Positions 44,588-47,802 of a DNA stretch of 64,000 nucleotides are shown here, piece by piece. Location of the stretch: positions 930,001-994,000 of the forward strand of contig JAJTBS010000001.1 of assembly GCA_021286765.1 (NCBI GenBank), written 5' to 3'. The notes beneath the pieces were generated by a model that did not search any database, was not told the DNA's origin, and was given only the letters and a program-made list of their open reading frames with translations. This DNA comes from Holophagaceae bacterium (GTDB lineage Bacteria; Acidobacteriota; Holophagae; Holophagales; Holophagaceae). Numbering within the stretch: position 1 is the first letter of the stretch; every line of letters begins with the position of its first letter. The position numbers were made by a program, and so were the translations under genes.

Positions 44588-45331
44588 TCAGACTCCGAGA
44601 AGGGTCGGGGCGACCCAGGCGAGAAAATGGATGTAGAGGCGGAAAGCCGGGGCGAAGACATATTTCATGCCCCCGAGAAAGACCAGGGCGAGCAGGACGA
44701 TGTACATGTGCTGCCTGTACTTGTCCAGAACCTGTGCGGCACGATACGGAAGGAATGCCCTGAGCACGGCCGCGCCATCGAGAGGCCCCACTGGAAGCAG
44801 GTTGAACAGCGCCAAACCGAAATTCACCAAAATGAGGCGCCCGGTCAGCGCGAGGAAAAGCGATGTGGTCGGGTCAACCTTCATCTCGCTGAGGGATTCA
44901 AACCCGTTGAGGGCGCCGACAAAGTAGGCCCAGCGCTCCTCATGCCCAGGCACCAGGAAGCGGAGCCCGAGGGTCAGCAGAATGATCGAAAGAATGGCCA
45001 AAACGACATTCGAGCCTGGTCCCGCCGCCGACACGAGGGCATCCCCGGTCCGCATGCTGAAGCGCCGCGTGTAGTTGGCCGGATTGACCGGAACCGGCTT
45101 GGCCCAGCCGATCATGGGAATGCCCGTGGTCATCCCGATCAGCGGGAAGAGCACGGTCCCGATGGGATCGATGTGGGCCAGCGGGTTCAGCGTCATGCGC
45201 CCGAGCCGGGCCGCCGTGTCGTCCTCGAGCCAATAGGCGGCCGTGGCATGGCTGGCCTCGTGGACACTGAGGCTGAACAGCAGGGCCACGTAGCTGACGA
45301 GGATGGTGGGGATGGAGATGCTATCGAACAC
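44588..45331 (-). CDS. Site-2-type M50 membrane metalloprotease
   Basis: 247 residues with about six TM helices. Zinc motif HEASH in the first TM region (SLSVHEASHATAAY) and the second site NLLPVGPLDGAAVL give the paired M50B signature. No PDZ domain, so it belongs to the short Rip/SpoIVFB-like group with unknown substrates. The start is GTG 45331 with GGAG five bases upstream. It is co-transcribed with trpS. Confidence 0.88.
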   Translation of the reverse strand: MFDSISIPTILVSYVALLFSLSVHEASHATAAYWLEDDTAARLGRMTLNPLAHIDPIGTVLFPLIGMTTGIPMIGWAKPVPVNPANYTRRFSMRTGDALVSAAGPGSNVVLAILSIILLTLGLRFLVPGHEERWAYFVGALNGFESLSEMKVDPTTSLFLALTGRLILVNFGLALFNLLPVGPLDGAAVLRAFLPYRAAQVLDKYRQHMYIVLLALVFLGGMKYVFAPAFRLYIHFLAWVAPTLLGV

Positions 45332-45442
45332 CCGGACTCCGGCAATATTCCAGTGTACAGGGCGGAGGCCGATGAACCGAGGGATGGCATGCAGAGGCGG
45401 TGCTGGCTCTGGTTATGCTTATCCCTCGACCCGGAGCCAGGC

Positions 45443-47008
45443 ATGTATGTGAAAGCCAATTCGCCCCATGCGGCTGCTGCCGGGAAGAGCGTCATCGGGT
45501 TCAACCTGATCAATGGCAAGGAGGTCGAGGGAGACCTCTCCCTGATCCAGTCCAAATCCGCCCTGGACAACCGGGACTTGGTGGGCATGTTCCCGGACAG
45601 CGGCGAGAAGGACGTGGCCCGGGCCGCCAAGGCCGCCGCGGAGGCCTTCCCCGCCTGGTCCGGAACGCCCTTCCCAGCCCGGGAGGCCGTGGTGCTTCGC
45701 ACGGCCGGAATCCTGACGGCTCACCAGGACAAGCTGGCCAGGATCATCACCCGTGAAATCGGCATGACCCCCCGGGAGGCGCTGGGGGATGTCCAGGAGG
45801 CCATCGACGCCTGTGCCTTCTTTGCGGCCGCCGTTGGGACCCAGGACCTTCCGGGCGAGGCCGGCCCGCGTCGCCGCCCCGTGGGTGTCTGCGGCATCCT
45901 CGCCACCGGCAGCTCCCCCCTGGCCGCCCCCGCCTGCAAGATCCTGCCCGCCATCCTGTGCGGCAACACCGTGGTCTGGAAGCCCAGCGACAATGCCCCC
46001 ACGGCCGCCTACCTCCTCCTCCGGGCCATGCTGGAGGCGGGCCTGCCTCCGGGCGTGGTGAACACCGTCAATGGCCGGGGGCGGGCCGGCTGCGGCAAGC
46101 ACTTCCTGGCAGGCATCGACAAGGGCCACTTCCAGGCCTTCAGCTTCGTGGGCTCGGCTTCCCTGGGGCACCTGGTGGGAGAGGCCTGCGGCCGGAACCT
46201 CATCCTCCCGAGCCTGGATCTGGTGGGAAAAGGCAGTCTGGTGGTCCTGGCCGATGCCGACCTGGACCGCGCCGCGGACGACGCCGTCCAGGCCGCCTTC
46301 GGTCAGGCCGGCCAGCGTGCCAACGGTCTGGCCAACCTCCTGGTGCATGAGGCCTGTGCGGCGGGCTTCAAGCAGCGCCTGTTGGACCGCGTCGCCGCGC
46401 TGGAGGTCGGCAACCCCCTGACGCACCCGGAGGTGGCCTACGGCCCCATGATCAATGCCCGGGCAGCCACGGCCTTCCGCGAGCACTGGGATCTGGGGCG
46501 GGCCCAGGGCGCCACGCTGCTCACCGGCGGTGCCCAGTGGACCGAAGACAACCGCACGGCCCAGGTGAAGGGCGAGATCTCCCATGGCGCCTACATGCAG
46601 CCCTGCGTCTGGGAGGGCGTGACACCCGACATGGGGTTGTTCCGCCACCAGGTGGCCGGCCCCACCGTGACCCTGGGCACCTTCCAGGACCTGGACGCGG
46701 CCCTGGGCTGGATCGCCGAGGCCACCTCGGGCGCCACGGTCAGCCTCTACACCCACGAACCCGCACAGATCGAGCTGTTCCATCGATCCGCCCGGACGGA
46801 CATCGCCCGGGTCAACACCACCCGCGATGACCAGGCCACCCGGCTCTCCTTCACCGGCCACGGCACCCGCTCGGGCTGTCAGCCCGTCCTCGATGGGTTT
46901 ACCCGGTGGCTGTCCGTGCAGGGCGAGGCTGGGTGGGCCGCAGCTGCCAGCACCAAGGCTCCGGAACCCGTGGCTGCCACCCTCAAGACCGACTGGGACA
47001 GCCTCTAG
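45443..47008 (+). CDS. Aldehyde dehydrogenase-fold protein lacking catalytic residues
   Basis: 521 residues spanning the whole ALDH fold, including VGVCGILATGSSPLAAPACK, GNTVVWKPS, GPMI and the C-terminal part. The three catalytic positions are changed: the Asn of PWNFP is Ser157 (TGSSP), the Glu of ELGGK is Asp259 (LDLVGKG), and the nucleophile Cys of GQRC is Ala293 (GQRANG). The frame is intact, so this is a pseudoenzyme rather than a decayed gene. Some neighbouring sequence is like the ALDH7 branch. ATG 45443 follows GGAG. Confidence 0.85.
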   Translation: MYVKANSPHAAAAGKSVIGFNLINGKEVEGDLSLIQSKSALDNRDLVGMFPDSGEKDVARAAKAAAEAFPAWSGTPFPAREAVVLRTAGILTAHQDKLARIITREIGMTPREALGDVQEAIDACAFFAAAVGTQDLPGEAGPRRRPVGVCGILATGSSPLAAPACKILPAILCGNTVVWKPSDNAPTAAYLLLRAMLEAGLPPGVVNTVNGRGRAGCGKHFLAGIDKGHFQAFSFVGSASLGHLVGEACGRNLILPSLDLVGKGSLVVLADADLDRAADDAVQAAFGQAGQRANGLANLLVHEACAAGFKQRLLDRVAALEVGNPLTHPEVAYGPMINARAATAFREHWDLGRAQGATLLTGGAQWTEDNRTAQVKGEISHGAYMQPCVWEGVTPDMGLFRHQVAGPTVTLGTFQDLDAALGWIAEATSGATVSLYTHEPAQIELFHRSARTDIARVNTTRDDQATRLSFTGHGTRSGCQPVLDGFTRWLSVQGEAGWAAAASTKAPEPVAATLKTDWDSL

Positions 47009-47022
47009 GGGCGCGGGGAAGG

Positions 47023-47802
47023 TCAGAGGTCCAGGCCGGCCAAGGCAGCGCCCAGGTCCCCGGGCGTCCCGCCCAGTTTCAACCTCATCAGGAATTCGGT
47101 GTTGCCCTCGCCGCCCCTGATGGGGCTCACGGCCAGGGCCCGTGGGCGCAGGTCTGTTCCGGTGAAGAAGGACCAGGTGTCCACCAGGACCCGCCGGTGC
47201 ACCGCTGCATCGCGCACGATGCCACCCGAGCCGACATCCTCCCGCCCGGCCTCGAACTGCGGCTTCACCAGCAGCACCGCCTCTGCCTCCGCCACGAGGC
47301 TGGGCAGCACGGGGGGGATGGCCAGCCGCAGCGAGATGAAGCTCAGGTCCGCCACCAGCAGGTGGCAGCGCTCCGGGATGCAGGCGGCATCCCAGGTCCG
47401 CAGGTTCACCTGCTCCATGGAAACCACCCGTGGGTCGCTGCGGAGCTTCCAGTGCAGCTGGTTGGTGCCCACATCCACGGCGTAGACCTTTGCCGCGCCG
47501 CGCTGCAGCAGGCAATCCGTGAAACCGCCTGTGCTGGCGCCGGCGTCGAAGCAGGTGAGCCCCGCAGGGTCGATGCCCCACAGGTCCAGGGCCCCGGCCA
47601 GCTTCAGCCCCCCCCGGCTGACGAAGGGCAGTGCCTCGCCACGCAGGCGGATGGTCGCGGCCTCGTCCACGGCCGTGCCGGCCTTGGTGACGGGGCGGTC
47701 CTCCACCAGCACATCGCCCGCGAGGATGCGAGCCTGGGCCCTGGCACGGGTCTCACAGAGGCCCAGCTGCACCAGCAGCAGATCCAGACGAACCCTAGCC
47801 AC
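47023..47802 (-). CDS. tlyA: TlyA-family rRNA 2'-O-methyltransferase / hemolysin-like
   Basis: 259 residues: an S4 RNA-binding domain (about 3-62; RLDLLLVQLGLCETRARAQ, GDVLVEDRPVTKAG), then an FtsJ-like methyltransferase (FDAGASTGGFTDCLLQRGA, DLSFISLRLAIPPVL, LVKPQFEAGRE). In mycobacteria TlyA methylates 16S C1409 and 23S C1920 riboses. GTG 47802 is the start and overlaps mltG by eight bases. Confidence 0.92.
   Translation of the reverse strand: MARVRLDLLLVQLGLCETRARAQARILAGDVLVEDRPVTKAGTAVDEAATIRLRGEALPFVSRGGLKLAGALDLWGIDPAGLTCFDAGASTGGFTDCLLQRGAAKVYAVDVGTNQLHWKLRSDPRVVSMEQVNLRTWDAACIPERCHLLVADLSFISLRLAIPPVLPSLVAEAEAVLLVKPQFEAGREDVGSGGIVRDAAVHRRVLVDTWSFFTGTDLRPRALAVSPIRGGEGNTEFLMRLKLGGTPGDLGAALAGLDL

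Follow-up and report, generated by a model that had tools for sequence, protein, structure and literature searches.

Why would a bacterium keep an aldehyde dehydrogenase (ALDH) from which the catalytic machinery has largely disappeared? The question is raised by a 64,000-nucleotide stretch of a Holophagaceae genome (the window), in which an open reading frame at positions 45443..47008 (+ strand) encodes a pseudo-aldehyde dehydrogenase of 521 amino acids, recognised by the Aldedh profile and by alignment to ALDHTt, the enzyme of Thermus thermophilus. The frame starts with ATG, has a Shine-Dalgarno-like GGAG 7-10 nt upstream and contains no internal stop. The gene is monocistronic, convergent with tlyA and divergent from a gene for an M50 protease-like protein. 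An extended -10 promoter-like element (TGGTTATGCT, 45410..45419, +) was recognised by eye, and several relatives have one upstream too. An antisense open frame of 720 aa spans the gene (45419-47581, - strand); it is most likely a G+C effect, since dN/dS marks the sense frame as the selected one.

The protein belongs to the ALDH superfamily by every measure of fold. Its single match to the Pfam Aldedh profile (PF00171) reaches 308.5 bits, with a cut-off of 23, and among solved structures the four ALDHTt entries are closest (360 bits for 6fk3/6fjx). The AlphaFold2 model (pLDDT 87.6, pTM 0.89) finds its best PDB match in 6fjx (Z 51.1, rmsd 1.6, 485 residues). With the purifying selection described below, these results agree with the original prediction of a complete, well-conserved frame with an ALDH fold. 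The protein resembles ALDHTt (6FJX, 6FK3, 6FKU, 6FKV; PMC6127216) in fold, ADP-binding residues, N-terminal extension and long C-terminal tail, at ~40% identity, and a Holophaga foetida protein has been listed among the long-tailed ALDHTt homologues (PMC6127216). ALDHTt is the best match over the full length, the tail is present and its terminal TDWxSL is kept, as in the long-tailed type; the crook within the tail is not conserved. The same genome encodes four other ALDH-like proteins, all with active motifs, two of which NCBIfam names L-piperidine-6-carboxylate dehydrogenase and L-glutamate-semialdehyde dehydrogenase. All four are at most 33% identical to the window protein, and the idea that the latter is a paralogue backed by a second active close copy was therefore rejected.

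The differences from ALDHTt are concentrated in the active site. ALDHTt is active and carries Cys295, Glu261, the catalytic Asn, Glu404, the anchor loop and the crook, all of which are changed in the window protein except for the acid at position 259. The ALDHTt motifs TAGNFP, LELGGK, GQRCTS and EIFGP become ATGSSP, LDLVGK, GQRANG and QVAGP, and alignment to ALDHTt confirms that Ser157, Asp259 and Ala293, the residues named in the original prediction, are the correct catalytic positions. The nucleophile Cys (Ala293, codon 46319..46321, +; ALDHTt Cys295) and the oxyanion Asn (Ser157, codon 45911..45913, +) are missing from all 23 complete orthologues of the dead clade of the window's genus (g1), the window's included. 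Position 293 takes six residues (P15, S2, Q2, L2, T1, A1) and position 157 takes five (S16, A3, T2, C1, I1). Thus Ser157 is widely shared (16/23), as is Asp259 (20/23), but Ala293 is unique to the window genome (1/23), the sister genome having Pro; the conserved feature is the absence of Cys. At the general-base position (Asp259, codon 46217..46219, +; ALDHTt Glu261) a carboxylate remains throughout, as Asp in 20 orthologues and Glu in three. The claim that all catalytic residues are lost therefore stands for Cys and Asn and fails for Glu. Nor were three independent losses borne out, because the losses of Cys and Asn co-occur in every clade member and the change of Glu is conservative. In addition, Gln403-Ala405 (46649..46657, +) replace the residues at ALDHTt Glu404/Phe406, a nicotinamide-ribose contact (PMC6127216) lost in 23/23, and alignment to ALDHTt reveals a 5-residue deletion in the FGGxxxSGNG loop, adjoining the aldehyde anchor loop (46850..46855, +).

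No displaced catalytic Cys or Glu was found in the alignment, and the 286-300 loop holds no Cys, which answers the objection that the active residues might lie elsewhere. That another nucleophile sustains a weak residual ALDH or esterase activity might be suspected from five conserved cysteines (C124, C150, C217, C249 and C388), but these are common to most active orthologues that also possess the catalytic Cys, and we regard such activity as very improbable.

The loss is a property of a clade and not of one genome. Orthologues were detected in 48 of 77 genomes of the family at E <= 1e-80; the window comes from a Geothrix-like genus (g1) within the Holophagaceae, and orthologues occur in Geothrix limicola and in several Holophagaceae MAGs. 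Both a sequencing error and a lone mutant among active orthologues were rejected, since Cys and Asn are equally missing from the complete orthologues that other genomes of the clade encode (n=23 with the window). A contig-edge fragment (G059) is of the dead type as well. In two proteins outside the 23 (G010, G052), Gly replaces Cys and Thr replaces Asn, but LELGG is kept. All three catalytic residues are kept in six basal g1 genomes (G001, G011, G018, G020, G051 and G056) and in every complete orthologue from genera g10 and g12-g15. In g16, four species (G081, G082, G084 and G086; loci L138, L136, L139 and L140) carry Arg at the Cys position and Ile, Ala or Val at the Asn position, with dN/dS well below 1; a fifth g16 protein (G085) has no Cys at the nucleophile position either, and a g17 protein (G087) misses only Asn. 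On the ALDH tree (FastTree, some nodes weak) intact proteins separate the g16 group from the g1 group, which indicates that catalysis was lost at least twice. The second loss, in g16, is apparently independent of that in g1.

The dead gene is nonetheless under purifying selection. Among close pairs of the dead clade (dS <= 1.2), maximum likelihood dN/dS is about 0.04-0.11 (0.042-0.105), while intact orthologue pairs give 0.02-0.04 (0.036-0.040 at a depth similar to that of the dead pairs) and neighbouring genes mostly 0.01-0.07. Pooled omega is 0.074 for the dead and 0.026 for the intact proteins, and 0.032 and 0.066 for pairs of g16. For the dead clade, omega=1 is rejected with 2dlnL 1481, and none of the 23 complete copies has a broken frame or a stop. 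Random decay is therefore excluded, as had been predicted, and since all omega values lie far below 1 the dead protein is functional. The catalytic motif has thus been lost in an orthologue group that is maintained, the situation that defines a pseudoenzyme.

The history of the locus bears on how the loss came about. The order TrpS-M50-ALDH is common to intact and dead copies, which are therefore orthologues and not paralogues; in the dead clade it mostly continues with TlyA-MltG-permease-saccharopine dehydrogenase-like-RapZ. In a neighbour-gene tree (also FastTree, with some nodes weak) the six intact g1 genomes group together (support 1.0) as sister to all genomes with a dead copy or none (0.95), so that a single origin of the catalytic loss in g1 fits. 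TlyA immediately adjoins M50 in 11 g1 genomes, where the intervening gap of roughly 50-100 bases is too short for an ALDH gene; we interpret these cases as clean deletions, which by the neighbour-gene tree occurred several times. Given that several lineages have lost the gene completely, its role is dispensable.

A few features of the locus deserve mention in their own right. The window M50 protease-like gene (44588-45331, - strand) shares only about 59% identity with its counterpart in the sister genome G049, while the other locus genes are 82-97% identical between the two and G049 and G054 have almost the same M50 gene; this suggests a xenologous replacement in the window genome. In G057 an ORF resembling a PAS/sensor histidine kinase lies between ALDH and TlyA (L149 10553-11959), and ALDH-TlyA gaps of similar size occur in G004, G019, G023, G045 and G050.

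In other genera (g10-g17; e.g. L128 and L135), a divergent gene for an FAD-dependent oxidoreductase lies between M50 and ALDH, and it still adjoins the ALDH gene at the four dead g16 loci. Among solved structures it is closest to 3axb/3vqr and 1y56_B. We take 3axb/3vqr to be dye-linked L-proline dehydrogenase and 1y56_B to belong, as beta subunit, to an L-proline dehydrogenase complex from archaea. A similar FAD oxidoreductase gene adjoins ALDH at two loci from Thermaceae MAGs (L016, L019). A link to a nearby proline dehydrogenase was considered and rejected, because that gene is present in 44 of 47 genomes of the genus whether the ALDH is there or not. No g1 genome has the FAD oxidoreductase except one that is possibly contaminated (G005), and it is missing from the six genomes with an intact ALDH as well, which implies that its loss preceded the loss of catalysis. 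This order of events bears on the proposal that catalysis became useless once the partner oxidoreductase had gone and that the gene has since drifted slowly towards loss. The absence of the oxidoreductase from g1 and the clean gaps between M50 and TlyA are in keeping with such a course; however, the intact g1 proteins persist without the FAD gene, the catalytic domain itself is constrained in the dead clade (omega 0.086 against 0.038 in intact proteins), and dN/dS rules out decay of the living copies. We consider slow decay very unlikely.

If the gene is kept, what is selection preserving? The dead clade shows 2.5 times more changes overall than the intact proteins, and the relaxation is uneven. 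Omega in dead and intact proteins, respectively, is 0.020 and 0.018 for the N-terminus (1-40), 0.046 and 0.017 for the cofactor domain, 0.129 and 0.003 for the oligomerisation segments (hairpin), 0.060 and 0.005 for the linker with the anchor loop, 0.250 and 0.075 for the tail, and 0.034 and 0.001 for the last six residues. Constraint has loosened at the Glu404 position, the catalytic trio, residues 111-140 and 161-175, the anchor loop (456-470) and the crook (497-510), and substrate-tunnel segments are among the fastest-evolving parts. The weakly constrained tail segment 497-515 (46931..46987, +; omega 0.25) lies where intact proteins have the tunnel-capping LQLAQ crook. New residues have become fixed in the dead clade at several sites (T155, S158, E198, L241, D453 and F486). 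Together with the acid kept at 259 and the conserved TGxSP and GQ, these could reflect an altered pocket that catalyses a new, Cys-independent reaction. A new active site would be expected to be fixed, but the residues at 293 and 157 differ widely, 403/405 vary freely among the 23 orthologues and the tunnel evolves fast; a different enzyme therefore seems improbable to us, if a little less so than slow decay.

The ADP side of the cofactor site behaves in the opposite way. In ALDHTt, NADP is contacted on this side by K182, S184, E185, S240 and R342 (PMC6127216), which correspond to K180, S182, D183, S238 and R340 of the window protein. Lys180, Ser182 and Asp183 lie in a KPSD motif of ADP-ribose contacts (45980..45991, +; K and S in 23/23, D in 22/23), and the pyrophosphate contacts Ser238 (46154..46156, +; ALDHTt Ser240) and Arg340 (46460..46462, +; ALDHTt Arg342) are invariant. 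By Fisher tests on parsimony counts, which ignore dependence between sites and compare the clade with an intact set spanning more genera, the dead clade has one change over the five ADP-contact sites versus 32 over six nicotinamide/catalytic sites (p=3.3e-5); the cofactor domain is relatively slowed (OR 0.56, p=2.4e-10), and the oligomerisation hairpin, linker and tail are speeded (OR 2.0-2.5). In intact proteins those six nicotinamide/catalytic sites never change. Two patches, picked after seeing the data (the contact sites were taken from the ALDHTt paper), have also changed less in dead than in intact proteins: the strand and helix at residues 46-70 (MFPDSGEKDVARAAKAAAEAF, 45578..45652, +; 16 changes versus 35) and the adenosine-side loop at 204-223 (GVVNTVNGRGRAGCGKHFLA, 46052..46111, +; 12 versus 25). 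Finally, the slowest parts include the termini, helix 51-67 and the C-terminal TDWDSL (46988..47005, +), conserved in dead and intact orthologues as TDWxSL. The end of the ALDHTt tail contacts the N-terminus of another subunit (PMC6127216). The relaxed hairpin may mean a changed quaternary state.

These slow termini, with helix 51-67 and TDWxSL, would also suit a scaffold that binds no ligand, in which only the folded oligomer and its surface matter, a moonlighting interaction with a partner goes back to the active ancestor, and the ADP site is kept for folding. The g16 proteins, which lost catalysis separately (C->R), have lost the pyrophosphate-contact Ser too, suggesting a shared, non-catalytic role without strict ADP binding. 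However, the five ADP contacts are invariant or nearly so in the window clade, more than folding alone easily explains, and we hold this reading to be unlikely, though much less so than a new or residual activity.

The reading that we favour, with somewhat better than even confidence, is that the protein descends from an ALDHTt-like NAD(P)-dependent ALDH, lost catalysis in the ancestor of its clade and has been kept as a functional, adenine-dinucleotide-binding pseudoenzyme. The ancestor would have been a tetrameric enzyme, and aldehyde handling and hydride transfer would have gone from the dead protein. The Rossmann cleft would still bind an adenine nucleotide without turnover, be it the ADP moiety of NAD(P)(H) or a related one, in an oligomer presumably held together by its termini; these and segment 46-70 are candidate partner or assembly surfaces. 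The dead protein is probably a non-catalytic binding or regulatory protein, and its output, exerted through binding, might be that of a redox or nucleotide sensor, or of a regulator or scaffold for a putative partner. More tentatively, and on balance doubtfully, an ALDH may have been turned into a dedicated sensor of adenine dinucleotides (NAD(P)(H) or ADP-ribose-like), its catalytic half discarded and its ADP-binding half newly constrained so as to inform a partner of the redox or nucleotide state. The change would have occurred in one bacterial clade and, perhaps independently, in another genus.

In animals, pseudoenzymes are a familiar phenomenon. Human ALDH16A1 (PMC10650815) is likewise an ALDH superfamily protein without catalytic residues that is kept as a pseudoenzyme, but it belongs to another ALDH family and another lineage, with no orthology. 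ALDH16 architecture includes a second ALDH-like domain; the 521-aa window protein has a single Aldedh match. The ALDH-derived lens crystallins (PMC10211241) similarly use the ALDH fold in a non-catalytic role; unlike the window protein they are eukaryotic and structural, and eta-crystallin itself has been described as an aldehyde dehydrogenase (PMC10211241). The literature searched yielded no description of a comparable dead ALDH from bacteria. Annotation based on fold would label these dead proteins aldehyde dehydrogenases, which serves as a warning. In the Holophagaceae the bacterial case can be followed stepwise at one locus within one family, from active proteins through a partly changed pair (G010 and G052, with the Glu and its motif kept) to dead but selected proteins and clean deletions. 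The apparently independent second loss adds to what amounts to a natural experiment in turning an enzyme into a binding protein, for which close active relatives serve as controls.
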